Below, in pieces: positions 4,936 through 64,000 of a stretch of DNA of 64,000 nucleotides (positions are counted from its first letter, which is position 1; each line of letters opens with the position of its first letter). The notes beneath the pieces were generated by a model that was not told where the DNA came from, searched no databases, and worked only from the letters and a program-made list of their open reading frames with translations. The translations under genes were made by a program, and so were the position numbers. The stretch spans positions 1,590,195-1,654,194 of the forward strand of contig JAGKQI010000064.1 of the NCBI GenBank assembly GCA_018806915.1. Direction: 5' to 3'. This stretch comes from Phytophthora colocasiae. Lineage: Eukaryota; Oomycota; Peronosporomycetes; Peronosporales; Peronosporaceae.

Positions 4936-7278
4936 TCAACTTTGAAGAAGAACAGACATGGAAACGTCTTTCGAACTGGCCGAGTCAAGCAATTTGAACT
5001 CTTCACAGTTCAAACCAGTTCGGTCTTCCAGTTCGTCTTCCATGTACGGCAAAACAACGGCGTAACTGTTACCATTATCAACTTGAATTCGGTACAAGTA
5101 GAGCTGGATGCCAATAACACGAAGCCAGAAGAAGTTCCACGGATCTGTCATCATGGCGATGTTCATGAGCGTCAGGACGGAGTGCGACGCCACTGTTCGC
5201 AAAGTGAAGCTCCTGGTCACTGGCGGATTTCTCTTGTCTGCGGTTTTCTTTCTACTCCACAAGCGCCACGGATGCCAGGTAGAAGACGAAGGATGGACAG
5301 TGAATTCCGTTCCAGATAACCCTCGAACACTGGGAGGTGGCGATGGAGCGACTCGCGCCACACCGGAACTCGTTGATGAAAAATGAATTGGGATCTGTGG
5401 ACGAATTTGTGTGTGGAAGTGAATAACTGGCGGCGTGGTCCTCCAAAGTCTCTCGATTCCGCATGGAGCTGGAGATTGTCTACATATCATTCCACGAGTA
5501 GCGCGATACGTCCAGGAAGTTCGAGGCGTGAGGAACCCCAGAGTCTTAATTGCTATAGCGACCAAAGCTACAGCAACTAGACACAAACGAACCGTCTTGG
5601 AAGTCCCTCCGTAAAAGTATGAGGAGGAATTGAAGCAGTCGCCAGGGTTGGACGACCGCACGATGTCCATGGTCGGACCTTCGTTCGGGATGAGGAAGAT
5701 ATTGACGATGTTCATATCCCGGTAGAAGACGCTCTTGTACGGTCCGAAGACGGTCAGTGAAGACGTGAAACTGATCAAAAGTCCTCGAACTCCAGGAATC
5801 CCGTCTTGATGTCGCAGGCGCATTGCAAACAGCACGACAGTCGCGAACAGAGCCAGCGCCCAAACGCCTCGCATTTGTACCGAAGTTGTCTGGATAAACG
5901 GCAGCCACTGGATGTTGACCGATCCTCCAACTGAAGCCCAATATGAATCCAGGAAGATATCCGTAAAGCTGCTGTCCAGGAGAAGTGCTCCAACGTACGC
6001 ACAAACAGGTAAGAGACTGGAGTACACGATCACTTGGAAAGGGATTTTGAACACCATCGAAAGAGCTAAAAGCCATCGACTACTCGACTGGGGCTGCTCG
6101 GCTGATGCGTACATGTACGCACCGTAGACCAACAATACCAGACGAACCCACACGTAGCCTTGAGCTGCGCCTCTCAAGGTCGAAATGATACCGTACCAGT
6201 CCACGAGGTTCGTCTGGACGATATCCCGCTCATAGCGATAGTCATCCACAAAGACCGTCGTACAAGAACCCCCTATACAGCGTCTGCCTCGAGTAAGGAC
6301 AACAATCTCCAGCGCTTCATAGTTGTAAAAAGTGGACCGCATGGCTCCAGATGTGGACGAGAGCCTCTGGGACGACACCAGTGCCACCTCAAGCTTCAAG
6401 TCTGGATATTGTCGCTGTAAGGACTGAAGACGGAGATCCATGTGGTCCCAAAGGCGAACAGGAGGTAGTGAAGCGTCGAGTGGGTTGGCACACTTCCAGA
6501 TACCTGGGTGGTTGCAGAATCTGGGTCGAGGTGGAGATCGTTTGTTGTTGGAGCAGATTGCGAGTGATAATGGCTCGAGGGAGATTCGTGGAGTATGGAG
6601 CGAGTGCAGTCTCCAGGCAGAGTTCTTGGATACGAAGCTGACGACGTAGTGGTGGAGTCGGTCCACCCAGTTGTGCTTGGTGGCGTAGCGCAGCATCGTC
6701 AGTTGGTGCTTATTTGGTCTCAGATGTTCCAGTGAAGCGGAGATGAAGGCGTCTAACATTGTGAAGACGGTGCTAAGCTCTAAGAGGCTGGTGGCATTGG
6801 TTTCTTCACCTTCTTGCGGTTTATACAGTAAAAAAGATGGGAATTCCGATACGTTAAGCAGTTCCACAGCCCCACGCATTCCGACAGATGTGGTATCGTA
6901 CTGGTAGGACCAGACGCGAGCTGTGTCAATGTGCTGTTTGCCTTTGAGTCCTACGAATTCACTCGATGATTCGCTTTGATTGCCCCTCGAGATATGCAGA
7001 ACGGGGTAGTTGAACGGTCCGAAGCGAACGGCAGTACTGGGCATGAGCGGAACTGGATAAAACTCGTAGAGGTTTCGAATACCAAGACCTGTACGGGGGA
7101 TGTCAGTCATAAACAAGACGAGAGAAATGAATGTGACGATGCATCGGAGCTTGGAGAGGGCGATGCAGTGACTGATATCTGCTTGAATGAGGTTCTTGTG
7201 CCATTCCAGAGGTGGATGCATCGTCCTCGTGATGAAAGTCTCATTGAAATTTGGTTGATAACGGACGTCTCTCTCCAT
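4936..7278 (-). CDS. Tandem membrane-protein family, copy B (intact)
   Basis: This is the only undisturbed copy of the four, at 780 residues. A hydrophobic segment near residues 42-58 is followed by DIPRTGLGIRNL and a long, probably non-cytosolic part with several Cys and NxS/T sites. From about residue 380 come several membrane segments, including LVLLVYGAY, QVIVYSSLLPVCAYVGALLL, VWALALFATVVLFAM and LCLVAVALVAIAIKTLGFL. The carboxyl end has LMNIAMMTDPWNFFWLRV and an acidic DELEDRTGL block, conserved in all four copies. No known domain comes to mind; it looks like a lineage-specific multi-pass surface protein. The start is the first Met of the frame; a later Met (MHPPLEW) is also possible. 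Confidence is high that it is a gene, low on function. Confidence 0.8.
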   Translation of the reverse strand: MERDVRYQPNFNETFITRTMHPPLEWHKNLIQADISHCIALSKLRCIVTFISLVLFMTDIPRTGLGIRNLYEFYPVPLMPSTAVRFGPFNYPVLHISRGNQSESSSEFVGLKGKQHIDTARVWSYQYDTTSVGMRGAVELLNVSEFPSFLLYKPQEGEETNATSLLELSTVFTMLDAFISASLEHLRPNKHQLTMLRYATKHNWVDRLHHYVVSFVSKNSAWRLHSLHTPRISLEPLSLAICSNNKRSPPRPRFCNHPGIWKCANPLDASLPPVRLWDHMDLRLQSLQRQYPDLKLEVALVSSQRLSSTSGAMRSTFYNYEALEIVVLTRGRRCIGGSCTTVFVDDYRYERDIVQTNLVDWYGIISTLRGAAQGYVWVRLVLLVYGAYMYASAEQPQSSSRWLLALSMVFKIPFQVIVYSSLLPVCAYVGALLLDSSFTDIFLDSYWASVGGSVNIQWLPFIQTTSVQMRGVWALALFATVVLFAMRLRHQDGIPGVRGLLISFTSSLTVFGPYKSVFYRDMNIVNIFLIPNEGPTMDIVRSSNPGDCFNSSSYFYGGTSKTVRLCLVAVALVAIAIKTLGFLTPRTSWTYRATRGMICRQSPAPCGIERLWRTTPPVIHFHTQIRPQIPIHFSSTSSGVARVAPSPPPSVRGLSGTEFTVHPSSSTWHPWRLWSRKKTADKRNPPVTRSFTLRTVASHSVLTLMNIAMMTDPWNFFWLRVIGIQLYLYRIQVDNGNSYAVVLPYMEDELEDRTGLNCEEFKLLDSASSKDVSMSVLLQS
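6117..6687. repeat. Near-identical tract shared with copy A (gene conversion)
   Basis: This is the partner of 3630-4200, at a constant offset of 2487 bp with one difference seen. It encodes the stretch from RYATKHNWVDRLHHYV to VRLVLLVYGAY of the membrane family. Confidence 0.85.
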
Positions 7279-7339: not shown

Positions 7340-9672
7340 CTACCCTGCCTGCAGCAGTACTGATATTGGAACATCTCGAGAGTTTGCAGAGTCTACAAGC
7401 TGGAGGTCGCTGGGGCTTAATCCCGTGTGGTCTTCGATCTCGTCGTCAGCGTATGGTAAAAGCACTGCGTACGTCCCGAGACTTCGACCAGAGCGAACTT
7501 TGTACAGATACAACTGGACCCCAAGCACCCGCAGCCACAAGAAATTCCACGGGTCGGTCATCATGGCAATGTTCATGAGCTGAACAATGGATCGACACTC
7601 AGTTGAGTCGTATCCTGCCTCACCGGGGAGATTCCGTAGAGAGGCCCTTTTCGATGCAGTAAAGGACTCAAATGGTCTCACTTTGGTCTGGTCTGTTACA
7701 AGCGATGGTTTAGGCGATGGAGGAAGACGCGGTTGAACGAAGAACTGAACGCTCAGAACCGACGCCAACCACAGTCGATGCGTCCCACAAGGAATCGTCG
7801 GTGTTGAGCTCAGAATGACATCTCTAGCTTTACCACTGCGTACAAGAAGGACTCCAGTGTCCCGACAGCTGCAGCCAGTGCAATTACGACGCCAATGCAG
7901 AAGAGAAGCATCACGGCGCTGTCGTCGAAGAAGTACGTGGACACGTTGTAGTGGCCGACGGGGTTCCCGTGGACGATATCCATCGTTTGGCTCTCATCTG
8001 ACAGCAGAAACAAGCTGGTGATGTTGGTATCTCGCTGTGTCGTCTTCTTGTATGGACCAAATACCGTCAGAGTCGATGTAAAGGTGATCACAAGTCCTCG
8101 AATGGCTGGGAGACCCTCGCCCCAGTAATCTCTCGTCTTTCTTACGGCTAACACAACCAAAGTCACGAGTAAAGCTAAGAGCCAAACGTTGCGCATTTGA
8201 ACTGCAGTAGATCTCAAGAACGTCACGAGGTTAATATGGATAGAGCCACCAACAGCAGCCCAGTACGAGTCGAGGAAGATGTCCATGAAGCTGCTGTCCA
8301 GTACTTGAGCCACCACGTAACCACTGACGGGCAGCAAACTCGAGTATACGATCACCTCGAAGGGGATTCGAAACACAATGGACATTGCAAACCTCAATCG
8401 GAAACGGAAACTCAAAGCCAATTGACCTGCAGCAGTGTAAGCTCCGTACATTAACAGCAGTAACCGGATCCAGACGTACGCTTGGGCTCCACCACGCAGC
8501 ACTGCAATGATTGTGTACCATTTCACGAGGTTCGTCTGCACTGTGTCTCGCTCGTACCGGTAGTCGTCTACGAAGACGGTGGTGCAGTTCATCTTCTTCT
8601 CTTTACAATGTCTGCCTCGAGTTATTACCGTCACTTCCAGAGCTTCGTAGTTATAGTACGTAGATCTACTCAAGGCCCCGGAAGTGGACGAAAGTCTCTG
8701 GGACGACAACAGAGCCACCTCCAGCTCCAAATGCGGGTATTTCTGCCTCAAAAGCTGCAGACGAAGGTCGATATGATCCCAGATGCGAACGGCAGGAAGC
8801 TCTGCATCCGCTGGGTGTGTTAACTTCCAAATCCCTGGATGATTACAGAAGCGAGGACGAAGGGAAGGTGCTTTTCGTCTTGAGCAGATCTCAATCGACT
8901 GAAAAGTTCCCGAGAAACGAGGAATATGAAGAGAATGAAGCCGCCACGCGGGGTTCGCAGACGCGAATCGCACGACGTAGTGGTGGATGCGGTCGATCCA
9001 GTTGTGTTTGGTGGCGAACCGCAGAACTTTCGCTTCTCCACCATCTTCTGGCTGTAACTTAACGTACGCTGCGTTAACCAGAGCGTCCAGCATCGTGAAG
9101 GTCGGCTCAAGACCCACAAGACTCTCTCCATTGGTAATTGGCTCACCTTTTGCTGGTTTGTAGCGCAAATATTGAGGGAATTCCGTCACGTTGAGCAACT
9201 CCACAGCTCCTCGAATACCAACTGACAGAGTATCGAACTGGTAGGGCCAAGCTCGAGCTGTGGTGATCGTTTTGGAGCCTTTTTGTCCTACAAACGTTGA
9301 CGATCCGTTGGCATTGGGAAAGCGGCAGATGTGCACAACGGGGTAGTCGAATGGTCCGAACCGAACGGCAGTGCTAGGCATGAGCTGGACTGGGTAAAAT
9401 TCTTGCAGATTGCGGATACCTAAGCCAGTTCGGGGGATGTCTGTGATGAGGAGTGTGAGTGAAAGCACTGTGAAGACACATCGCAGTCTGGAGAGCACGA
9501 TGCACTGAGGGATATGCGGAGGTTTGAGGAAGTTCCCCCAGAGTTTCGTCCTCTCCAACGTCCGAGTTCTGGCACTGTTGGCTCGGTTGAAAGCAGAGGA
9601 GGAAGCGTCTTCCGGTGCTCGAGTGGGTCCATTGCCATGCCATGCAGCAGCATGGGGGTGAATTGCTGCCAT
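7340..9672 (-). pseudogene. Tandem membrane-protein family, copy C (frameshift)
   Basis: This third copy reads from MAAIHPHAA (ATG at 9672) to a stop at 7340. The frame is open upstream to 9768, but that part overlaps the 3' end of copy D, so the later Met is the better start. A one-base frameshift near 7825-7850 separates the N-terminal frame (ending KLEMSF) from the frame that continues the family sequence (ILSSTPTIPCGT, then RLWLASVLSV). The C-terminal 142 residues keep LMNIAMMTDPWNFLWLRV and the DEIEDHTGL block. No plausible intron fits so short a gap, so it is a real frameshift or a sequence error. Function is unknown. Confidence 0.7.
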
Positions 9673-49999: not shown

Positions 50000-50496
50000 A
50001 TGTTCATGCGGATCACCCACCGAGTTGGACGCAAAAGAATTTCATTCAAGTCACTGTCCCTCCGGGTTCTCTAGGTCTACATCTCTCTATGGAGATAGGG
50101 CAGCACGCTGTGGTGAAGGGGTTCGCTGAGGACAGTAGCACAGGGACTTTGATCGCCTCCAAAGGAGTTCGTGCAGGTCACACTGTCACAGCCATCAACG
50201 GAGTGGGCGTGAGCTCACTGGAGCGTGATGCAGTATGCAGCGTGCTGGAAAATCTGCTGGGCCGCGAAAAAGAGATTACTTTCGCTGAGGGTTTCCGGGA
50301 AACGCTAGGTGTTGACACAACGAAGGTGGCAGACATCGAGCAGCCGCGGTTCTTAGTGTGTGCGTGCGGCTGGAAGATCCACGTCGTGCTGGCTACAGTT
50401 GGGAAACGAGCTGCTGCTGCTTTGCATGCTCTGCAAGTGCTTGGCGCGTATGTATGGCAGCTCGAGGGTGTATTTCATCGGTTGGTACGAATCTAA
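50000..50496 (+). pseudogene. PDZ-domain fragment
   Basis: A single frame without an upstream ATG reads VTVPPGSLGLHL, VVKGFAEDSSTGTLIASKGV, RAGHTVTAINGVGVSSLERD and VLENLLGREKEITFA. The GLGL-like loop, strand order and INGVGV turn fit one PDZ domain. The first Met in the frame (50089) would cut off the carboxylate-binding loop, so the fragment most likely lost its start. It sits among transposon debris and was probably moved there or left behind. The last 40 residues do not look PDZ-related. Confidence 0.45.
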
Positions 50497-50908
50497 GCCC
50501 CCCCCCCTGAATTTCACGCCGGAAAGCGTCGTCTTAGACGAAAGAACTCTGTACTTAGTAGCTGAAGTTCGAGCTCTACTGTTTCTCAAACGCATGCGAG
50601 CAAGATGCAGGATTGCAGTGGAGCCTACCACCAGCAGCCAATCGTGAAAGAAATAAAAGAAATTCTGTTGTATTATGCTCGATAAAATTGTATGTATTCC
50701 GTCCGTCGAGATAGTAATCGCAGCCATTTGCTCGTGGGAGACCATTACCACTCTTTGTTGGCTGAACCCCAACGTGCGGCTTTTGCTTTCCGTTTTTCTC
50801 TGAGTTTCAATGCCATAACAACGCATTCCTTAGTCGAAGATCCTTTTTTCTTCGGCAAAGAACTCGTGGACTTTGAATTAGAGGACCGACGAAGAGTCTT
50901 TGCTCGGC

Positions 50909-52161
50909 TCAAAGCACGAGCCATAACCTTCTGTTGTTCTGAAATGACAACTTGGTGGTACCGCTGCGGAGGTGTACGGATTTCAGTAGTACTGTTTTGA
51001 ACTTGATTTGACGCTGGAACAACGACAGCTGTAAATTTGCCAATAGCATTCGGTACGTCGAGGATCGATAGCTTTCATCATCGTCACTGAGAAACACATC
51101 CTCCGTCAGATTTACAGGAGGGCTTGATGTGGGTTGTTCAGTCACTCGTGACACGATTGAAGAAGCTACATCTGACGAGGTAATTCCAAGCGTTGCGGCA
51201 TCTTGAAGCTGTCTCGTCACCAATCCGTCAACAAGAGTCTTTGCACTATTCTGGGACCTTCGTACAGCCCGCTCTTCGCTGTCTGCTATTGCTTGAAGTA
51301 GCTTTTGCTCCAACTCATTTAATCCATGGTTCTCATGCGCGAGATGGCGGCGGACGGCTGCACGTGCCCTTTTCTCGGATAACTTTGCTGAATTCTCCAT
51401 GTGTGTCGTTACTCGACTTTCAAGAGCAGCGATATGATCCTAGTATTTGAGCTGTCTGGCGCACTTCTGCTCCGATAGCAACTTTGGTCTATGCGGCATG
51501 ATGCTTGAAGTTTACGCCCAACAGCTTCTTTGTTCGTTGTTCAGAGCTGGATATTGCCGCCGTTTGAGCCTGTTGTAAAGCTGCTGTCAGCCTCGTTTCC
51601 ATCGCCTTCTGCGCTGTTAACTGCTGCTCTGAAGCAGTCCCAAACTGGGTCAAAGCTGCCTCTACAGTAGTTACTCGTGCCGTCAATGATTGATTCGCTT
51701 GCATTTGTTCCTCAGACGCAAGCTGAATGTGAGCAACTGATTCAGATACCGCATTGAGCTTGTGGGCCAAGGATATTTGCTCTCGGGATTGGTGTTCAGA
51801 TGAAGCTTGTATTTGTGTTAGTGCGTGGCCAATGTCAGTAATCTTTGACTCCACGCCCAACTGTAGTCTGGCTTGAAGCTGGGAAGTAGCCTCATCTCGA
51901 GTTGCTGTCTCGTTGCGTGTCTCCTCCATCGCCGCCCGGATTCTAGCGGTAATATGATGGTCAATTTGAGTGGGATTTACCTGGTTTTGCTGTATGAAGT
52001 GTGAGTTCAAGGCTTCTTGCGTTTGCTTCAGCTCTGGCTTGCTCAACTCGTGCCTCAACATATTGCTGTTGTTGGAACATTTGATGGCTCTGCCGATACT
52101 GTAGATGATATTGAGCATCCGCAAGTGTTGTGGCTTGTGCGGACACATGCGTAATCGCCAT
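50909..52161 (-). pseudogene. Coiled-coil ORF remnants
   Basis: Three frames on the minus strand together look like one decayed coiled-coil protein. It begins MAITHVSAQATTLADAQYH (52161). After a frameshift near 51970 it continues with ITDIGHALTQIQ, QLASEEQMQANQSL and EAALTQFGTASEQQ, then in another frame from 51400 with KLSEKRARAAVRRHL and a Ser-rich acidic end. No membrane segment or catalytic motif is visible. It may be an accessory protein of a mobile element. Assignment is weak. Confidence 0.35.
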
Positions 52162-52812
52162 GCCGAGCGTATGGGGTGAATATGACTTTGAACATCAATC
52201 CATTTGAAAATGGTTCTAGAGCGACTATCTCCGTCGATCCTTCGATGTACCCGCATACAGAGACTCCACTTCGACGATTGGCTCCATGCGATCTTTATGA
52301 AGCGTAATTTGTAGTGAGACCTGTAAAACTGAGCCTCAATTCTACTGGCGATAATGCTAACCAATGGTCGTGCGAGTGGGAGCTGCTCGAAACCACCGCC
52401 TCGGCTAGGTGCGGTTCCAGGGAGTTTTATGGAACCACTAACTGCCGTGGAACCAGGTTCCCCCTCTTAGTTCGTCTCCCTTTTTTCGGGGGAGACCGTC
52501 TCTGGTTCGTCTCGTCCGAGGGGTGGATAATTGTAAGAGACACTTCCAAACAGGAGCCTCTAATAATTAATGGCGGCTGCATGGATGATGTTGCCGACAA
52601 ATTTATACTGGTTTGAATATTGTCCAAACACAATTAGGGTAGGGTAATATGTTAATGTAGGCAACGAGGGGGAATATGTTTTGGGTCTATACGATCCACC
52701 TGTACAGTTCATATCACTCGAATATTTTCCTTTCTGCCAACAGAAGACTAAGAAACAGTATAAGCCTCCCAGACCACACACCAGTCAATTGCCAGCACGC
52801 TCTACAGACGGC
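52162..52812. other. No supported gene
   Basis: Short repeated GGAACC-type motifs with inverted symmetry occur at about 52410-52460, otherwise AT-rich sequence. Nothing is recognised. Confidence 0.35.
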
Positions 52813-54087
52813 TGTGGCGAAGCGGATCTGCCAAAATCTCGTTGAGGCCGATCGCGATCGCCTCTTGCGCCCAGACACCGACTAACGGAGGGGGTCCCCC
52901 GATGATCCGTGATCTTGCTGCGTGTAGTGTTCACCTTGTGTACCCGTCGGTAGGCGGGTTACGCTCTTCCAGGTGACTTCTGAAGATGTCTTGGGACGAG
53001 AAGAATGTCTTGGGTGACGCAGGGGTGTGAGATAGCGTGGGAGTACTTCACTCTACCTCGGAGGGGTTGATCCGGGTCACATGCGAGTTCTCGGTCTTGA
53101 TCCGGTCGCCTGGTCTTCGATCCAGGACTTCCAAAGGTCCAATGTTGGGGATCTGATCCCTTCCTTTACGATGCTTGCCGCTTCCTATAGCGGGGGTCTT
53201 GATGGGTTGAGAGTCAACGGGATCGTCCAGCCAAGCAGCCAATTCCTTCCGATCCGTAATAAGCATTTGAAGGATAGATCACTAGATAGGATAAAACTGG
53301 CCAATATATTACCCAGTTATAACCTCTATGCTAGCTATCTTCTCCTTACCTTCTTGATGCTGGTGGGCCAATGTAGTTCCCTATTCCGGGCTTGAGTGAA
53401 GGCACTTGTGAGGTCCAGAGCAAATTCGATTCTGTTTATGGTTATTCCTATGCCTACTAGTCCCATCCTGATTTACCATCCTACGATCACACGACAGTGG
53501 CTACATAGGTGATCCCTAGCTTGGTTCCCCTAACCCTGATCGGGAGCTGATCTCGCGCTTAACCGGGATGTGATCTCGCACTTCACTGGGAGGTGATCGT
53601 TGCGTGATCCCACTTGGTCATCGCCTGAGGAACCCGGATCAAGCCGGTAGAAGTGTCCACGCCAAGTCTGGGGCTGAGCTCGATCCGATGTTGATCTCGT
53701 ACTTAAACGGGAGAGGATCACAACGTGATCCTGCTTTGTCGCCGCCCCGAGAATCGGGATCAGGTTATTAGAAGGTTCCGGGGCGCCGGGGTGAGCCGTG
53801 AGCCAAGATCGTGCCCACTTAGGACCCGCCATCGCCGATCGCGCGAGAACACCCTTGATCTCCTTACTCTTCCACCCGGTAGAACTCCGATCGCCAACGA
53901 ACACCGCTCCACGTCCCTCGCTTCCGCAGGTGTCTCCGTTGCCTGTTCCCGGGCGGGACCCATCATACCTTCGTCTGATTCGACTCAGATCTGGGTATCA
54001 CAAATCCCCCTGTCGCTTGTTCCGGCTCTCTTCAGCTTCGTGGCTGGCACTGCCTTTCCGGGAAATATTCTCGTTCGCTCTACCACA
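52813..54087 (-). repeat. LTR of element 2
   Basis: About 1275 bp. The left 700 bp align well, inverted, with the element 1 LTR end (GTTGAGGCCGATCGCGATCG onward). The right part is diverged but ends in TACCACA next to the same polypurine tract, and is again rich in GATC. Confidence 0.82.
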
Positions 54088-54180
54088 TCCGCCCCCAGCA
54101 CGTAAGTTGGGCTGACGCAGCTCACTTCGCGCTCATTTCCATACTCGTACAAGTCGTTCAAGCACCGTCACCCCTCCACA

Positions 54181-55610
54181 ATGTCTGATCCGCCTCCGCC
54201 TCCCCGCTCTCCCTCGACGCCGAGAACGCCCTCGAGCGAACGCTCGCTCCGATCAGCTCAATCCGCTGCCTCACACTTCTCCACTCCCGGTGTAAGCTCT
54301 GAGCTGGTCACCTTACGGGCGAGATTAGCCCATAGTCAACGGATGCGTGAGACCCTGGGTCGTGATCGGGATCACTTGGATGGAACCGTCCGCCGGTTGC
54401 GGTCTGAGATTGAGGACATGGAGCACTTCCGGGACGACCAGGCAGAGGAGATCCTGCGTCTGAACACTGAACTTGCTCGTCTGCGGTCGAGAATGGGAGG
54501 TGCCGTCAGTGGGGACGCAATCGCCGCCTTGCAAGCTCAGCGAACCCAGCACGGAGCCGAGCGACGGGATTCCGAGCAGCGAATGGTTCGGATCCAGGTG
54601 CAGCTAGACTCTGCGCTTGGGGATCTCGACTCCTACTGGCCGAACTCCGCGAGGCAGGGGAGGCCGAGATCGAACTCCGGGACAAACTCCAGGATCGCGA
54701 ACGGAACTCGCCGCAGTGCGCTACGATCTCGTTCTCGCTCAGCGTAGCCTCGATCGCCGGCAGAGGGATGATTCTCTCCCAGGTCAGCAGGCTGCCATGG
54801 CCGCGCCTTGCAGTCAGGCGCACGCCTCTACAGTGGAAGCCCGGTTGAGGTTGGCAGGACCCAAGCGGAATTACTCGCAGCTCAAGCTGAGGTCACGTAT
54901 TTGGAACGCGAGGCTGAGGATCGTAAGGCTGAGCTGGCTCGGGCAATATCTCGCTCTGGAGGATGCGCCTGCATCGGGTCCCCTGTTCCGTCCTCGCTGT
55001 GACGCGGCTGCCGATACCGCCGCCTTCTCCAGTTTAGAGCAAGATCTGGCGGATGCCTTGGGGAACCTGGAGATTGTCCAGTACGACCGGGATCAACTCT
55101 CCGTCAAGCATCGTTCAGGCTGTCACCGACCGGGATCAGGCCCGCTTCGACCGGGATCAAGCGATGCGCGATCTCGATCGGGTTACAGCGGATCGGGATC
55201 GGATCCAGGCCGACCTGGACGCTGCCGCCCAAGACCGCTTAACAGGTCTCGCGGACTGCGAAGTAGCTCGCTCTGCTCGGGACGCGGCCACACAGGAGCT
55301 CAACCAACTCCAGCAGCAGAACACCGAGCTCCGACAGGCTCACCAGGAGCTGGACGCCGATTATGCGGAAGCTGAACAGCAACTGCATCATGCCGAAGAC
55401 TCTTCTGCTCGGTTGTCCTCGTGGATTGCGGACCGGCGGATGACCCGTGCTACCAAAAGATCCCGAAGCGGCTCCGTTTCCCCCGCTGTCCCTCCTTCGG
55501 CGCGTAAGCGTCCGGTTCGGAGTTCTTCGGCCCCCCGTGCTCCAGGTGCCGCTGCCAGCGGAGCTGCCGGGTCAGCCAAACCCGCCCCACCCGCAACACC
55601 AGCTCCTGCA
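54181..55610 (+). pseudogene. Antisense coiled-coil gene of element 2 (truncated)
   Basis: The ATG is 93 bp from the LTR, as in element 1 (125 bp), and the gene runs against the element's own orientation. The N-terminus is Ser/Pro-rich (MSDPPPPPRSPSTPRTPSS). A coil follows with RDHL, DMEHFRDDQAEEILRLNTEL, which aligns with AMERFRADQQNEIARLEREI of element 1. After several frameshifts the coil continues (TDRDQARFDRDQAMRDLDRV, QELDADYAEAEQQLHHAED) into a basic Pro/Ser stretch (KRSRSGSVSPAVPPSARK), again parallel to element 1. It is truncated by the element starting at 55611. No intron is apparent at the matching place. Confidence 0.75.
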
Positions 55611-56071
55611 TGTAACGGGGTTACACGTACAAGTGGTTGTACCACTTGTAACTCTAACAGTTAGGATAACTGTTAGAGGTTGGAAATGGGCCTCAGACCT
55701 TGGTGTGCTGTACACACCAAAGGATACATGGGCGAACCACATTATTGGATGGTTCGTGTGCATTTGTGCATATTATTGGTAGAAAGTAACGGATTTCTAC
55801 CAATCACTGAGCAGAGTTTCTGCCAACCACACGTTGGCAGACCCTTTAGAAATAGATTACAAACAGTTTTAGGAGGTCCATAATTGGCTTATGCCAAATT
55901 CAATAACAGTTCTCATTTTACGGTATTTTGCAGTTTAATTTAGTTATATTTGATTTAATTATACTTATTTAAATAAGTATACTTAAATTAAGTCTATTCT
56001 AATTGCACGCTTCCTCATACACGTAAGCGCACGTGTACGCCACCCTAATAGGTCTAGGTAGACCCATTACA
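55611..56071 (+). repeat. 5' LTR of the hairpin element
   Basis: 461 bp bounded by TGTAA and TTACA. It contains strong inverted repeats at 55628-55650, 55652-55678 (12-bp arms), 55775-55804 (11-bp arms) and 55819-55841, and an AT-rich palindrome near 55960. Confidence 0.75.
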
Positions 56072-56073
56072 CC

Positions 56074-56087
56074 TGGTAGCACTTTGT
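56074..56087 (+). other. Probable primer binding site
   Basis: TGGTAGCACTTTGT begins two bases after the LTR. TGG at the LTR-proximal end matches a tRNA CCA end. No T-arm sequence follows, so identity is open. Confidence 0.5.
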
Positions 56088-56399
56088 AGTCCGGTCCCAC
56101 GACCGACTGCTGTTCGTTCGTAATGGAGTCATACGAACGCGGGGTAGAGAACTCCCAATGGATGAGGGATCCACTGGGACTTCACATGTCCGTGACGCGC
56201 ACGGACTGTGCCCACCTGTCAGATCCAGAGTGGGGAAGCTCTCCAAAGACTTTCACAAGTCATTGGAGAGGCAGCGGTAGCGACGATGCTTCGTACGCTA
56301 GTCGCCGACAGAGCAACACGGTGTTGCTCTGGGGTACATTGTTAAGGAGCAACGAGATGTTGCTGCCTTCGGTGGCTTCCCCTGGCTACGCGTGGAGTC

Positions 56400-57080
56400 G
56401 TTGAAACTCCACGAGTACCTTCACACGGGGAAGCGGAGGACGAGACCCTCCTTCGGTGGCTTGTCGAACTCGACACAGCCGTTGCGGCTCGACGTATCGT
56501 CGATCCGATGTCGAAGGTCGCGTTCGCCATGTCATGTCTTGGCGGACGTGCGAGGAGTTGGGCCTATGGGCGCCGACTTCCGGATCCTACGTGCTTCAGC
56601 ACGTACGAGGTGTTCAAGGAGGAACTCAAGCTTGCGTTTGAGCCTCCGAAGAACGAGTTCAGATCGAGAGCAGAGTTTCTCGATCTGCAACAGGGCAAGG
56701 ATGATGTTCACACCTTTGCCCAGCGTGCTCGATACTTGGTATCGAACATAGTGGCCAACCCGATCGACGAGGCGACCAAGGTCGTCACGTTCATGAAGGG
56801 ACTAAGAGATGGTCCCGTCAAAACATATCTCTTCCGGAGAGTATCCGAATACTCGAGGAGGCGATCAGCCTTGTAATGCAAGAGGAGTTTAGCCGGCGTC
56901 AAGCTAAATCTCCATGCGAAACGCGCCGAAGCCGGCGCGTCCTGTTGTGAAGACGGGAGGTCCGGAACCTATGGACCTTCGAGTGCTACGACTGCTGGTC
57001 AACAGCAGCGTAGATACGGCAAAGGTTCGATGTTACAAGTGTAGTAACATCGGTCACTATGCACGCGAGTGCACAGCGGG
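56400..57080 (+). pseudogene. gag: Gag of the hairpin element
   Basis: Capsid-like sequence reads MSCLGGRARSWAYGRRLPDP, FKEELKLAFEPPKNEFRSRA and VVTFMKGLRDGPVKTYLFR, typical of Retrotrans_gag. The frame is lost near 56845 and recovered before a zinc knuckle CYKCSNIGHYAREC (57031-57072). Upstream sequence back to about 56120 is probably the N-terminal part, in broken frames. Confidence 0.75.
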
Positions 57081-57243
57081 CGGGCGTTCAAAAACGCCAA
57101 GGACCAGTAGGCGCGGGGCGTCCTGGCTGGTGATGCAGTCTCGCGTGTCGAGCTTGGACACGCGACGATGAGGACTGCTGCCCCAGCGAGAAGGTTTCTC
57201 GCTGTAGCCGCAAGATGACAAGCCAAACCTTGTCATCCTGAAC

Positions 57244-57957
57244 GTGATGTCGAAGAGAGCGAACTCTCTTCGTGCCCTAGTGGACTCGGGCGCGTCGAAC
57301 AACTTTGTTCGACAGGGAAGTCTTCGAAGGCTTGACTTCGAAGAGGCCGACACGCCTCGCGGCGTGTTGGAGGTGCGGTTGGCAACAGGTGCCACCGTGA
57401 GAACTGAGAAGCGCGTAGTCCGTGTGCGCTTCTCTTACAAACGAAGGACGTTTGTAGAAGATCTTATCGTCTTGGATCTAGACGATAAGTTCGACTTGGT
57501 ATTAGGCATGCCGTGGCTTGCACGGCATGACCCGGTGATCAACTGGGAGAAGCGTACACTCGTACGCTTCAACGACACATGCGCGACAGAGAGCGATGGC
57601 CCTGTCAGTGCTGCACATGCACCGGCCGGTGCATGTGGATCCCCAGTTGAGGCAGCAGCGGCCGCCGCTGCCTCCGATCGCCGCCGGCGACCATCAACGA
57701 CTCCGGGAGTCGTTGTGAGAAAATGTGTGTCGACTCAGAAATCTGAGCCGAAGGGTCGCGGTCACATGAGTGATGGTCAGGTGAATGTGAATCACCTGAC
57801 GCGTAAACATCTGAATGATGTTTGTCACATGAGTGATGGTCAGGTGAATGCGATTCACCTGAGAGAAGGTAAAATACCGGTATTACCGGTATCCTTGGAG
57901 GTACTTCAAGCCCCCAAGGGTCGCGCCGACGACGTCAGCGTCAACTCTGGGAGTTGA
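57244..57957 (+). pseudogene. pro: Aspartic protease of the hairpin element
   Basis: Open over 237 codons. LRALVDSGASNNFVRQG (DSGA active site), then VLEVRLATGATVRTEKRVVR and DLVLGMPWLARHDPVINWE, the retropepsin pattern. From about 57600 the protein becomes a low-value linker where hairpins dominate. The protease half itself is intact in frame, with eight strong hairpins in its coding sequence (57251-57529). Confidence 0.8.
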
Positions 57958-58869
57958 CGAAGAAAAAATAAAATTCGGGGAACCGAAAGACGTGCGTCAG
58001 CTCTGGGAGCTGACGCCACTGGCGCTTCGCTGCTAGTTCCGGGAACTATGATCGGTCATCGTAGCTCCGGGAGCTGATGAGACGTGTATAGGCGAACAGT
58101 CGCTGCTAGTTCCGGGAACTATGATCGTACATCCGCTCTGGGAACGGATGATATGTGTACACGCGAACACTCGCTAGCGCAGGAAGCTAGCGAGAGCACG
58201 TCGACTCCGGGAGTCGACGATGCGGTTGCTTCATCCGCTCCGGGAGCGGATGGAGGCGCAGCGGTTCAGGGAACCGACTGCGCGGCAGGAGGTGCTGGCG
58301 GTTGCAAAACGCCCAGCACCCGAACAACTCCGTGCTCACGTGCAGCAGCGCTGCACGCGATGAGCGGCACCAAGCCGGGCTTGATAGTGCGAGTCAGCGG
58401 AAGGAATCCGCTGACGATAGCGATAACGTCCCGTCCAAGGTGCGATGCCTTGACGTGGAGCACCCGGAGCCGGGCTCCATGGTAGACTCGCGGCGCAAGC
58501 TCAGGAGCTGCGCGAGTCTCAGTCCGGGACTGGAGACGGGTGTGTCTGCAGTGCAGACACCGAGTGTCGAGACGTTGAACGTCTTGACACTCGTACCAAG
58601 CCACAGTACCAGAGGATGCGGTTAGAGAATCCGCCGACGAGTGCGTCGGCGTTGACCGCACTTCCAACGATGAGTTGGAAGCGCTTCGCACGAGACTTGT
58701 ACGATGGACGCATCGAACAATTTTGCATTCTCTCGGATATCGAGAGAGTGGAGCGCGAGGCCGAAGAGCTGAAGCAGCTCGTCGTCGATGGGATCACTGA
58801 GGGTGATGACTCCTCAGTGCGAAGACTAAGAAGCAGCGCTTCGAGGAGCAGAGTTGGGACTCGCTGGAG

Positions 58870-61300
58870 GTCGTGTCCCTACTACGAGTTCTGCGGGAGT
58901 ACAAGGATGTACTCCCTGACGAGATTCCTTCGGAGCCTGAAGGATAAGGGCGTACAGCACGAGATTGATCTCGTGCCGGGCACGAAGTATCTGTGTTACA
59001 CGGCAGTGGCCACTGCCGCGTGAACAAGTGTAGCGATCGACGACTTCTTTGAAAGTCGTCGTCTTGCAGGTCAAGTGTGCGGGAGTCAAAGTCCCCGCAC
59101 AGTGCCCCAACGTTCTGTGTTAAGAAACCACAGGGCGGCTGGCGTATCGTCTATGCGTACAACAAGTTGAACGATGCGACGATACCGGCGCAGACGCCGA
59201 TACCGCGAAAAGATGTTATCATCGATTCGATGGCCTTGAGCACTATCTTCAGTGCTCTAGATCTGCGTGATGGATTCTATCAGATCTTCATGCGTGAGAG
59301 GGACATCCTCTCACTGCGGTAAGCACTCCAAGCGGTATGCTTTGGGAGTGGCTCATCATGCCGCAGGGGCTTAAGAACGCCCCTGCGACGTTCAATAGAT
59401 GCGTGACACATCTATTGCGCTTCGGTGCGCGACTTCGCACCGAGCTACTTCGACGACGTGTTCGTCCACAGCCGGGCTGTGAACGGGAAGATGGACATTG
59501 AGATGCACAAGGTGCATCTCCGGAAGCTGCTAGAGCTTATGAGGAAACATAAGCTCTATGCGAACCTGAAGAAGTGTATCTTCGGGGCGAGCGAGATACC
59601 CGTGCTGGGGTGTCTCGTGGGGAAAGATGGCGTGCACCCTGACCCAGAGAAGGTCAGAGTGATCAATGAATGGCCCACACCATCCAATGTGAAGGAACTG
59701 AGGCAGTTCTTTGGGCTTGCCACGTACTTGTGCAAGTACGTGGACAACTACGCGGGCAAGATTCGCCCGTTGTCACAGCTTCTTAAGAAAGAAGCTGAGT
59801 GGATTTGGACGACCGAGTGCGAGCATGTATTCGGTGCAGTCAAGCAGGGCTTGACTGAAGCGCCGATCTTGGCCGTGGCGGACCAAGATCGTCCATTCCA
59901 CGTAGTGTGCGATGCATCCGACTTTGCAATCGGATGTGCATTGATGCAACACGATCACGAAGGGCGTGATCGTAGTTCATTATCAATCGCGTCAGCTGAA
60001 GCCAGCTGAGCGTAACTATCCGTACATGACAAGGAGCTCCTTGCCATGAAGTATGCACTCGCAAAGTTCCGAGTGTATCTACTTGGGAGTAGACCGTTCG
60101 TGGTCTATACAGACCACGCATCATTGCGTACGGCGATTGTCGCCGCACATCTCGCAACGTATGGCGAGATGGTTGTCCTTCTTCGCGGAGTACAACTTCC
60201 GGGTGGAGTACAAACCCGGAAGACTCAATCGTAGTGGCCGACGCGCTATCGCGTCGACCTGACTATGCGGAGACGGTCGACGCCAACGCTGCTGGCGTCG
60301 TGAGGACAGTGCCGTCGTCAACGCTGATTGACGACGTGAAGAACGCGTATGCAAGGGATGCAGACGCGAAGGGGCTGCTGGAGTTCGTGGCACCTTCCGA
60401 CGTGGCACGTCGGAAGCTAACCCTCATCTTTCGAGCTCGTGTACACCGCTATCGTGTACACGAAGGCCTACTGTTGTACAGTGCAGTAGACGACAATGCG
60501 GATCGCATTGTCGTTCCGAATGACCGCGACCTCCGGTTGAGGATCATGTTCGAGTATCACGATGCCCCCACGGCAGGGCATCCGGGTCGTGAGAAGACAT
60601 ACACTCTTCACGCGTGACTTCTACCGGCACCACCAGTACAGTGGGTGCGCAAGTACGTACGTGCTTGCGAGGTTTGTCAACGCGTGAAGCCTGCGCAGTT
60701 CTCGCAGGCTCCTCTTCAATCACTACCGACTCCGTCGGAGTGTTGGCAGTCCATGTCCATGGACTTTGTCTTCGGTCTTCCGCTTGACAGCAAGCGGAGT
60801 GACGGGCATCGTTGTCTTTGTGGACTGATTCAGCAAGATGGTTCATCTTGCTGCCGTCCCGGTTACTGTTACAGCCGCGCAGACTGCGCGACTGTTTGTT
60901 GACATGGTGTTCAAACACCATGGCATGCCGCTCGACATTGTGTCGGACTGTGATCCACGCTTCACAGCGTTCTGGCAAGAAGTGTTTACACTTCTGGTTC
61001 ACAGTTATCAATGTCGACTGCGGATCATCCGCAGACGGACGGACAGACCGAACGTGTCAACCGTGTATTGGGTGACACGTTGAAGAGCTACGCTCACTCG
61101 TTCCCGCATTGGAGCGAGTGCTTGCCGATGGCAGAGTTTGCCATCAATAACTCGGTGCATGCCTCGACAGGGCATGGCACCGTTCTACGTGAACGCCATG
61201 AGGCATTCACGATTGCCGAGCATGCTCGGCAGGGTAGCTTCCTCCTTATGGGGGAGGATCTACGGTTGCGTCCGAACAACCGCAGAATGCGCAACTGATA
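58870..61300 (+). pseudogene. pol: RT, RNase H and integrase of the hairpin element
   Basis: Reverse transcriptase is recognisable through frameshifts: HSAPTFCVKKPQGGWRIVYA, FSALDLRDGFYQIFMRERD, EWLIMPQGLKNAPATFNR and the catalytic YFDDVFVHSRA. The thumb has VLGCLVGKDGVHPDPEKVR. RNase H has FHVVCDASDFAIGCALMQHD and VYTDHASLRT. Integrase has the zinc-finger start HPGREKTYTL, then ACEVCQRVKPAQ, MSMDFVFGLP, IVSDCDPRFTAFWQE and HPQTDGQTERVNR. Frames change at about 59310, 59430, 59985, 60230, 60615, 60840 and 61010. Codons are conserved enough that the family is clear. Confidence 0.85.
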
Positions 61301-62560
61301 GCAGCACACCATCAGCCGTGGTGACGCGTGCGACGTCTCGTTCGAGCAGGAACGAGTGCGCGATGTCTGTGCCGGGCACAGACATGAGATGATAGCGAGC
61401 AGGCAGGGCCTGCTGCTGACAGGCGACAAGCTGAAAGAATTAGCTCGGGTGCGCTAGACTTTGTCCAGCCGAAGACAAGCCGTCATACGGTTTGTCCAGG
61501 ATGTTATCGCAGCTTCATGTCGATCGACAGAAGCTGAACGCAGATAATGCTGGTAGGGGCAACATAAATGAATTCAAATTGGGTTCTATTGGTTTTGTTA
61601 GCTACATGCAAAACCTACCTCAAACATGCAGTGTTTCCTGACTTTGGAGCAAGCAAGCTTGTCTAAGATTCATTGGGCAACGTTCAAAGTACTTGAACGC
61701 GCACGGCAACGCGTACCGGCTGGACATACCGTCCAGCATGAGGATCCACCCGACCTTTCTACGTCGGGCGGTTGAAGTTGCGTACGCGCAGCACGGGCTA
61801 CCGGCGGCTGGTAGTCCGGGCTGGAGCAGTGCGAGAGAGGTCGATCAACCGGCCTGCACTCTTGTCCCAAGATCGGACGAGAGAGAGGTTCGAGGCAGTC
61901 TGAGCTGCCTCGCAGACCTCAGCACGGAGGACACGAACCTCCTGCTTCAGAGCCGCTATCTCAGCGCTCTGTGTCTGCTCCAGCGGCAGCAACTCGATCG
62001 TGCAGGGCACGATCGTCATGGTCATAGCGTTGACCACGCGGAGGGAGGTGTTCCCACCCCTCCGCTGCCGCCGTTGCGCGACGTGCGCGTGGAGCGATCC
62101 GCTGGATTGTTGAGCGGATTCGTGGCTCATAAGATTATAAACGAACTCTCTGCGTTCGTTTTCGTATTCGTTGGAGATGGATTTCCTCCCCCATCGAGAT
62201 ACGTGGAGCTGGGCGGAACGTCCTGATGGAGGACGCGTTCCGGAAATGGTGAGGGCGTACGAAGCCCACTCATAATCCTGCAGGGGTAAGCCCTCGCACG
62301 AGGAGTGCCTGCGGTTAACCACAGCACTCGAGCCTCGCGTGGCACAATACGACCACGGAGCTCCTTACGATGTGATCGGGTACACGGACGACCGTGTACT
62401 CCAGGAGATCACTTTCGGTGAGATCGTGCTTTTGCCAAAGCTGCTGGCAACACGGACAGGGTGTGCCAAAGGGTAACGGTACATGGGATCCCCGCTTCCA
62501 TGGACTGATTCATGGAGGCGTTCAGCACTTTACCACGCGCAGTGGTGAAGTAGCGATCGC
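61301..62560 (+). other. Post-integrase region of the hairpin element
   Basis: HGNAYRLDIPSSMRIHPTF (about 61700-61760) is the conserved stretch that follows integrase in this group. The rest is not recognised, but hairpins continue (61995-62015, 62380-62399). On the minus strand a 174-codon frame (62322-61798) contains a coil-like EIAALKQEVRVLRAEVCEAA. Confidence 0.55.
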
Positions 62561-62564
62561 GAGC

Positions 62565-64000
62565 CGCGCTAAGTCGAACGACGAAAAACCAAGTGGGCGG
62601 ATCTGTTGTGACAGCTTTCCAGACCCAATATTGTGGATTGGGTACGTCGGTTGTGTGGCAATATTACCATGCCCGCAAAACGGTCCGAAGAAACCCCTCT
62701 TGATTACCTTTTTATCGGCTCAAAACTCAAGATCAAGGACGGGAGCCCCAAAGGCCTCGTCGGGAACACGTCGATCATTATATCGGAGACATTGGGTGAT
62801 CCTGGGAACTAGTCGATCGGCTGACCTTGCTTCGGCTCACGGATGTCGAGGATCTGGAGGAAGTGCTTCTGCACGCGAGAGAGCAAGAAAAAGCAGATAC
62901 AGCGTAAGTCCGCATTCGGCCTTCCGAAATATCGGCAGAAGATACCCGCTAGCGCCTCAACAGCGCCAGCTTCCGGGCTGTGGTGCGCGCGATTCAGCGC
63001 CCATGATCCAAGTTCAGAGTCAGAAGAAGTCTCAGGATCGGACGGGATCTCGACTCGAAGGGCGATCTCCGGAGGATATATCTCGCTGCGGCAGATGACA
63101 AGTCAACCGGTACTGGGGCGTTCCCACCAGGCGGATCAACCACAACCACGCGAACACGCGCACGATCGGGAGCCGGATCTCGGGATCGTCGCAGCTCGCC
63201 GGATCGATCGGAGCCGCTGTTCGCACTGCGGGTCCCGGAAACACACAGATCTGGACTGGTTGGAGTGCGTCTAACCTGTGATAAGTGCGGGAAAAAGGGG
63301 GTCACCCAACGGATCGCTGCCTATATACCGGCAGCCGTGTGGTTGTGGGGAGATCCATGAAGCTGGAGAATGCACCCCATGGAGGAATTCCTCCTTAAGC
63401 AACCAGATCCGCAAGTGGTAACGGACCCGACCCCGACATGCCGGATTGTTCCTCGAGAAGGTGGAAAAGATGTTAAACTAGGGACGCTCGCCGGTTTGGA
63501 AACCGGTAACGAGCCGAGCGTTCTGAGTACTGCATCTATGCATATGTGAACAAGAAATCGAAAGATCAAGATAGGGAGAATTCGGATCTGCGCGGTAAAT
63601 ACATGTAAGTTGCATTCGTATACTGCTAAGATCGCGAGCCTTCCCTCAGGTCAGGATGAGTTCTCCTCGGATCTGGTGCGGGAGGTGGCCTTGGATCTCA
63701 AGGAAGGAGAATCCAGGGGGTATTGGAAATATCACGCACCAGGAAAATGGTTCCGCCAAGCCAAGATCTCAGGCAAGATCAATCCATGAAAGAGCAATCT
63801 TGCTTCTGGACACACTGGCGCCGAGGTGCATCCATCTTGATACCGGCCTTTGCTCGTAAGGTTGGGTGCCACTTTGACAGTAGTCAGAGCACAGGAGTGT
63901 GTTGGGATCGGGGATAATGTGTACACCAACTGAAGGGAGAACGAGGGATCAAGATCACGCTTGCAGGGATACTTGGTCTACTTTTTCGATATTTGATCGG
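62565..64000 (+). mobile_element. Element 3: degraded gag-protease of the GATC-rich family (partial)
   Basis: From about 62565 the sequence aligns with 35310 onward of element 1. It contains the end of gag (zinc knuckles broken by small insertions, CSHCGSRKHTDLD kept), the GTTAAAC slippery site at 63472-63478 with its stem-loop, and the protease start (near 63790, DTGA region disrupted), then leaves the window. It differs from element 1 mostly by one- or two-base insertions. The junction with the hairpin element is abrupt. Confidence 0.85.

Follow-up and report, generated by a model that had tools for sequence, protein, structure and literature searches.

The window analysed here, a 64,000-nucleotide (nt) stretch of Phytophthora colocasiae DNA at the end of contig C93, carries at positions 55611-62567 one copy of a multicopy Ty3/gypsy retrotransposon family, F1, that is filled with short perfect hairpins. 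F1 elements are ~8.3 kb long with long terminal repeats (LTRs) of ~461 bp, and alignment to other copies in the searched genome (92.5 Mb in 105 contigs) revealed that the window copy is truncated at its 3' end. The following features were assigned to it, in window coordinates:

55611 to 56071, plus strand: 5' LTR, 461 bp, TGTAAC...CATTACA, with six perfect hairpins (matched by alignment with the two LTRs of other copies; termini read from the sequence)
55628 to 62399, no strand: set of 78 perfect inverted repeats, arms of 8-12, loops of 0-10 (full scan)
56074 to 56090, plus strand: putative tRNA primer-binding site, TGGTAGCAC..., 2 nt 3' of the LTR (read in the sequence)
56508 to 56876, plus strand: gag fragment (Retrotrans_gag PF03732, E 4.7e-14)
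57244 to 57957, plus strand: aspartic protease region (RVP_2 PF08284, E 1.1e-8)
59077 to 59322, plus strand: reverse transcriptase (RT) fragment (translation matches the RT stretch of copies L045 and L031)
59425 to 60009, plus strand: end of RT and start of RNase H (RT_RNaseH_2, E 4.2e-16; RVT_1, E 4.6e-5, under its curated cut-off)
60234 to 60617, plus strand: integrase zinc-binding (H2C2) fragment (PF17921, E 1.6e-6)
60838 to 61298, plus strand: integrase core fragments in two frames (matched by eye to the L048 and L031 integrase; no Pfam match for either open reading frame)
62560 to 62567, no strand: the F1 family match stops, with the 3' part and the 3' LTR missing (alignment to other copies)

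The Pfam-matched pieces (gag, retroviral protease, RT, RNase H and integrase zinc-binding domain) lie in Ty3/gypsy order, the protease, RT-RNase H and integrase pieces of the window copy starting at 57244, 59425 and 60234, and its reading frames are broken. Six copies are bounded by a TG...CA LTR pair and are 8.2-8.3 kb long, their LTRs matching over 460-471 bp at 99.1-100% identity; the window copy has the 5' LTR alone. Its TGGTAGCAC site may resemble an initiator-methionine primer-binding site.

Perfect inverted repeats were defined, unless stated otherwise, by arms of at least 8 and loops of 0-10. A full scan found 91 of them in the window, 78 of which lie inside 55611-62567 and cover 25% of its bases, while 40 dinucleotide shuffles of the same interval gave a mean of 1.03 and a maximum of 3. 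A first-pass annotation of the sequence had reported 35 such repeats where about one would be expected by chance in 7 kb; its chance figure agrees with the shuffles and the 16 repeats that it quoted are exact in coordinates and arm lengths, but its count was less than half of the full one. The repeats also begin and end with the element, as it had described: the first starts at 55628 and the last ends at 62399, and the flanks (50001-55610 and 62568-64000) together hold 1. A slight excess was seen in the rest of the window (13 repeats vs 8.0 shuffled in 1-54000).

The same saturation was found when related copies were scanned. Each of the six LTR-bounded copies, which lie on six contigs, holds 106-122 repeats, and the copy L016 has 122 vs 1.55 in shuffles. 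The frames of the window copy being broken, the codon control that the annotation had called for was run on the open pol frame of L016 (1733 codons), where 78 repeats stand against a mean of 2.55 and a maximum of 6 after synonymous-codon permutation (60 runs); with arms of at least 10, the numbers are 25 observed and 0.23 codon-shuffled. Repeats of L016 span the LTR, gag, pol, the 3' frame and the 3' non-coding part at 8-20 per kb, leaving just two hairpin-free stretches, of 61 and 27 nt. Their arms measure 8-13 (mode 9) and coverage reaches 33%. When loops of up to 60 were allowed, counts dropped steeply above loop 10, and loops of 0-2 nt are common. Hairpins are spread evenly over the codon registers (29/25/23). 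A regular spacing of the kind expected of a packaging array was considered and rejected, spacing being random (coefficient of variation 0.68 vs 0.65). Because the excess stands against shuffles and codon shuffles and recurs in six independent copies, it is not due to chance or codon bias nor, very probably, to assembly error. The element belongs to a known kind, and its saturation with hairpins is a real sequence trait and an extreme one.

Related families differ in this trait. Repeats are in excess in F2 (L051, 174-bp LTR; 30 vs 1.3 shuffled), F2b (L053, 309-bp LTR; 30 vs 1.6) and F4 (L056, 3150 bp; 11 vs 0.4), and few in F5 (L057; 1 vs 0.5) and F6 (L058; 2 vs 0.3). Thirteen Ty3/gypsy loci of other families (L021-L028, L032, L040 and L042-L044, forming five clusters at 90% identity; 42,858 bp) contain 1 repeat vs 4.8 expected with arms of at least 8, and 7 vs 19.9 with arms of at least 7, which is below chance, as if hairpins were counter-selected there. 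A quick tree of 521 shared columns, rooted on distant families, leaves F2/F2b outside (support 0.79) and joins F1 to a pair made up of F4 and the hairpin-poor F5/F6. Because F5/F6 fall beside F4 in this tree, hairpin density is taken to have changed at least once within the clade. An RT motif was rejected as the cause of the trait, since the YFDD clade also contains F5/F6. Among the 78 hairpins of F1 pol, those alignable without gaps seldom keep at least all but one of their arm pairs in the other families: 2/49 do so in F2, 3/46 in F2b and 2/36 in F4. Hairpins of F1, F2, F2b and F4 thus lie mostly at different positions, and on these alignments they were gained largely independently. One site was matched by eye from its protein motif:

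60831 to 60853, no strand: hairpin on the integrase SKMVHL motif; F2 and F4 also have a hairpin there, with the outer pair changed in F4

The proposal that hairpins in coding DNA are made by codon choice is broadly right. Amino-acid identity to relatives is just slightly lower in the arms than elsewhere, and sites invariant in three relatives and changed in F1 number 12/73 in pure-arm codons, ~8/58 in mixed codons and 29/277 outside, which are not clearly different. The potential of the protein for synonymous hairpins, per 1000 sites, is 16.2 in F1 vs 11.0 with residues shuffled once, and 10.6-15.7 vs 8.5-13.9 shuffled in four other families.

Comparison of copies caught hairpins whose loops had been turned over. 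Twenty-one distinct F1 copies, several of which are 3.3-kb pieces only, were placed on L016, and in five of them we found exact reverse-complement loops between intact arms, at seven hairpins in all. Four inversions are exact against L016; the other three emerged from comparison with another allele or from a scan of substitution clusters. Those with a counterpart in the window are:

55819 to 55841, no strand: hairpin TCTGCCAAC-CACAC-GTTGGCAGA, with loop GTGTG in one LTR of L017 and not in the other (copy comparison)
57840 to 57862, no strand: hairpin with loop GCG, which is CGC in L009, L018 and L019 (copy comparison)
59951 to 59973, no strand: hairpin ACGATCACG-AAGGG-CGTGATCGT, with loop CCCTT in L019 (copy comparison)
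60978 to 60995, no strand: hairpin AGAAGTGT-TT-ACACTTCT, inverted at a deletion junction of L045 (copy comparison)

L019 has further inversions (GAGCTT to AAGCTC and AAGGGTT to AACCCTT) and carries four in total, one of them common to two other copies. In L045 the loop TT has become AA, and in L009 a low-complexity GAAGAAG...CTTCTTC repeat is inverted. L016 itself lacks the reference states AAGGGTT and GCG, which are alleles found in other copies.

Substitution clusters were also compared with decoys. For 421 clusters of at least 2 substitutions in 20 comparisons, with runs of at least 14, copying as reverse complement fits 15, a reverse-only decoy 1 and a complement-only decoy 0; the 15 sum both directions and count one LTR event against both LTRs, so that they represent six distinct events. 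With at least 3 substitutions and runs of at least 12, the figures are 9 against 0 and 2 (132 clusters, both directions). At the L045 junction, 25 nt holding hairpin 5387-5408 are inverted at the point where 5408 is joined to 5899, precisely where 490 bases are missing. More generally, 16 of 28 rule-chosen alignment ends (BLAST ends, one LTR end being counted at both LTR positions) lie no more than 5 nt from a hairpin edge (30.3% expected, p=0.003), and 9/28 no more than 2 nt (14.2% expected, p=0.013). This list supersedes an earlier hand-picked one, in which 13/24 breakpoints lay within 5 nt of an edge (p=0.013) and location inside a hairpin was not enriched (9/24, p=0.39). Exact loop inversions, the junction hairpin of L045 and breakpoints clustered at hairpin edges are the signature of template switching, for which the first two give direct support.

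The time at which the loops turned bears on the enzyme. The LTRs of L019 differ at 1 of ~443 sites, which predicts 8.3 private internal substitutions since insertion, or about 46 at the upper 95% Poisson limit of that one LTR substitution, whereas 92 were observed. Because of this surplus, most changes in L019, and hence its inversions, probably predate insertion and arose during copying through RNA; gene conversion between the LTRs would be an alternative. By their sequences, F1 elements look to be copied with many errors. In L013, L018, L019 and L020 the LTRs are >99% identical, yet several frames are already broken. Private substitutions exceed the LTR-age prediction in L012, L016, L018, L019 and L020, and L013 fits its age.

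Once formed, stems are conserved. Private variants per site number 0.098 in stems, 0.106 outside and 0.165 in loops, and shared variants 0.017, 0.043 and 0.077, respectively. Shared variants of loops are raised at first and second codon positions too, and inversions probably account for only part of the loop excess. In pol, the ratio of shared to private variants at third codon positions is 0.22 in stems vs 0.65 outside hairpins (p=0.0013), close to the 0.23 of first and second positions outside hairpins. Hairpins chosen as intact in a single copy bias this ratio, so the comparison was repeated with other definitions: hairpins from all 21 copies gave 0.33 vs 0.65 (p=0.015), and those from four other single copies 0.21-0.31 vs 0.61-0.63 (p 0.004-0.043). 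The 3' non-coding part behaves in the same direction, with p 0.047 for L016 hairpins and >0.1 in five other definitions. Third positions in stems are thus about as constrained as amino-acid positions: broken stems are either weeded out by selection or repaired by correction. Double changes with rows anchored on L016 keep pairing in 13/23 true pairs, 6 of the 13 being in one hairpin of a tandem-repeat region, and slid pairs do so in 0-7 of 3-15. An earlier set of 40 compensatory pairs, from a plain multiple alignment of F1, was discarded, since 23 of the 24 that were looked up came from non-aligning ends of L002, L045 and L048. F2 has five compensatory pairs among 165, two of them in one hairpin. 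Because complementary changes in both arms, which correction would be expected to leave, are rare, we infer that stem maintenance depends in part on selection.

Folding calculations addressed the molecule that forms the hairpins. Sense-strand z is -4.83 in F1 (39 windows) and -4.53 in F4 (15 windows), and no structure was found in 10 kb of host DNA from the window (0.02) or in three hairpin-free loci (0.01 to 0.67). Folding energy below shuffles, the mark of genome-scale ordered RNA structure, is thus present in F1. The antisense strand scores lower than the sense strand in F1 (-5.89 vs -4.83, p 0.001), F2 (-1.50 vs -0.85, p 0.008) and F4 (-5.66 vs -4.53, p 0.003); the order is reversed in F2b (-1.06 vs -1.47, p 0.054), and F5 is moderately structured (antisense -2.48, sense -1.90, p 0.13). 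Shared non-Watson-Crick states in F1 stems comprise 25 G.T, 24 A.C and 28 others for all-copy hairpins, and 12, 7 and 12 for L016 hairpins, while one-mismatch stems of four families comprise 21 A.C, 15 G.T and 19 others. Tolerance of G.U together with a favoured sense strand, which we take to mark a structure kept as RNA, was therefore not found in these stems. Because G.U and A.C are equally frequent, simple selection on sense-RNA folding is disfavoured; on these pair counts, what is constrained seems to be Watson-Crick complementarity, as would be the case with copying or pairing of DNA. Of the causes named in the first-pass annotation, selection for RNA structure accordingly fares unevenly: the third-position shortage of shared variants speaks for selection, and the missing G.U preference and lower antisense z in 3/4 families speak against simple folding of the sense RNA. 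The targeting or silencing role that it also suggested found no direct support.

F1 is multicopy. A first search returned 277 candidates, and all of the 40 scored matched; with an F2 query (2770 candidates), 119/150 scored places fell at 74-78% identity, the band that holds F1, counted by eye with its places not individually inspected. A candidate target-site duplication, GCTGG, was seen by eye on both sides of one copy, L016. Phytophthora species supplied the closest named protein relatives (88% identity for F2 and, across the whole query, 80% for F1). A record labelled Aeromonas veronii (P0150) is 70% identical to the integrase and is probably oomycete contamination. Six stretches matched in a scan of IMG/VR, and none of them encodes a relative of the element. 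Within the window, the element sits inside a coiled-coil-like reading frame (54181-55610, by eye) that may belong to another retroelement. Positions 57776-58260 hold in-frame tandem repeats of MSDGQVN..HL and SAPGAD-like units, several of which have a hairpin of their own. L016 has an additional open frame of 176 codons 3' of pol (element positions 6662-7189), which is hairpin-rich too.

The explanation that we favour, with confidence a shade short of even, is that template switching in the course of reverse transcription creates the hairpins and makes them perfect, after which selection, acting against broken stems, preserves them. Where the template is nearly palindromic, the growing strand would fold back or jump to the other strand; one arm would then be copied as the reverse complement of the other before the return, giving perfect arms and sometimes an overturned loop. 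The switching would be performed by the element's own RT and, over many cycles, palindromes would come to fill the element wherever the protein tolerates them. The likeliest benefit would be a compact, self-folded genomic RNA or minus-strand cDNA that pairs poorly with silencing RNAs or with its complement. The first-pass annotation had offered RT template switching as a cause; switching itself is borne out by the inversions and the junction hairpin, and RT as its agent is suggested by the timing in L019 and countered by L017.

Several observations weigh against this explanation. No inversion was found in F2 (~334 clusters) or F2b (~45), nor in two outgroup sets (~353 and 5 clusters; one outgroup pair was unalignable at 80%). 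Alignment ends are not enriched within 10 nt of hairpin edges (17/28, p=0.29), and some of the ends are apparent nested insertions. The timing argument draws on a single copy and a single LTR substitution. The two LTRs of L017 disagree: the inverted loop is present in one, and the second, which lies in inverted orientation, shows the normal loop, so that the inversion may postdate reverse transcription or L017 may be composite. (Relative to the remainder of L017, its 3' part, 8092-8958, including the LTR, is inverted, and both ends of this part lie close to hairpins.) Maintenance of the stems by switching alone, which should make shared changes of both arms common, is further opposed by the finding of only two pairs that show a second Watson-Crick type in >1 copy, apparently in the tandem-repeat hairpin. 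Substitutions had been predicted to move toward pairing; changes on both sides do so, exceeding slid pairs, but private single mutations do not, since 18/619 create a hairpin vs 20.5/674 in the null and 147 destroy one vs 160.

Selection on sense-RNA folding alone, working through point mutation to give stem-loops for packaging, stability or Argonaute evasion, is the strongest competitor, and we regard it as unlikely. The strongly negative sense z of F1 and F4 against values of ~0 in host DNA and hairpin-free loci, the constraint on stem third positions at the level of first and second positions outside, the little-disturbed proteins and the small RNAs of oomycetes that match transposable elements (in the part of PMC3522703 available to us) would all suit it. 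It leaves whole inverted loops unexplained, and it sits badly with common loops of 0-2 nt, an even codon register, the lack of a G.U preference in shared states and one-mismatch stems, and the lower antisense z of F1, F2 and F4 (p 0.001-0.008), not of F2b. Those last values would instead suit selection on hairpins of the minus-strand cDNA, which might, for example, protect it or direct synthesis of the plus strand, as would the A.C mismatches (G.T on the minus strand), which in one-mismatch stems are no rarer than G.T (21 vs 15). However, the strand difference is small and opposite in F2b (p=0.054), and shared stem variants have no strand bias (G.T 25 vs A.C 24). We rate this account improbable.

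Switching need not have occurred in reverse transcription. Template switching is described for DNA replication in the part of PMC8794818 that we could consult, and one loop of L017 is oriented differently in its two LTRs, as host replication or repair acting after insertion might leave it. Against this stand the 13 repeats vs 8.0 in window 1-54000 and 1 vs 4.8 in the thirteen other Ty3/gypsy loci, the inversions of L019, which probably predate insertion, and the CGC loop, which is common to three loci. We consider a host origin slightly less probable even than selection on cDNA. A very improbable account is that palindromes are landing sites, the family inserting into them and offering copies of itself as safe targets. 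Targeting of palindromes by LTR elements has been reported (in the accessible part of PMC6911290), and two of three apparent F1-in-F1 junctions (L009 4362 and 5243) lie inside hairpins, the third (L010 6468-6473) being 7 nt off. There are three cases only and hairpins cover 33% of the element, and neither the perfection of stems nor the inverted loops would follow. Chance, codon bias or assembly artefact has a negligible claim, with nothing found in its favour and shuffles, codon shuffles and independent copies all contradicting it.

Switching in reverse transcription followed by selection would, in its broadest form, describe an oomycete retrotransposon clade with a palindrome-writing RT that turns its own genome into an almost unbroken series of short perfect hairpins, one every ~68 bases, with proteins kept and self-complementarity made a second heritable trait selected as strongly as protein; we advance this larger claim only tentatively. 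The origin of RNA stems, and how their arms stay matched, is an old puzzle, to which scattered cases in rRNA and microRNA genes have led to template switching being put forward as an answer (in the portion of PMC8794818 at hand). The multicopy F1 family records the process ~120 times along its length, and recent copies catch switching in the act, while related families of differing density and hairpin-poor families in the same nucleus serve as controls. Should RT be the agent, it would be a polymerase with an extreme tendency to switch strands. Should the hairpins be kept by selection, an element-wide fold has evolved in a mobile element under constraint about equal to that on its proteins, for a reason that we found nowhere described.

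In its LTRs, gag and protease-RT-RNase H-integrase order, and in relatives of up to 88% identity, F1 is like other Phytophthora Ty3/gypsy elements (Metaviridae). Our literature search for hairpin- or palindrome-rich retroelements, with subscription journals mostly outside its coverage, returned no description of its trait. Some viruses have genome-scale ordered RNA structure, in which folding energy lies far under that of shuffled controls along the whole genome. F1 shares with them a folding energy far below shuffles along its length; unlike theirs, its pairing is local, perfect and Watson-Crick, spans 8-13 bp, takes no account of G.U and is no stronger on the sense strand. The closest parallel is the work of Monttinen and Loytynoja 2022 (PMC8794818), the available part of which proposes that template switching in replication creates and maintains RNA hairpins and calls complete loop inversions in rRNA genes very rare. 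F1 resembles the quasi-palindrome correction described there, in which reverse-complement copying creates or perfects stems, leaves multi-base compensatory changes and rarely inverts loops. Those cases are replication errors in rRNA and microRNA genes, whereas here ~120 hairpins fill one protein-coding element, inversions occur at seven of them among 21 copies, and a reverse transcriptase is the probable enzyme.

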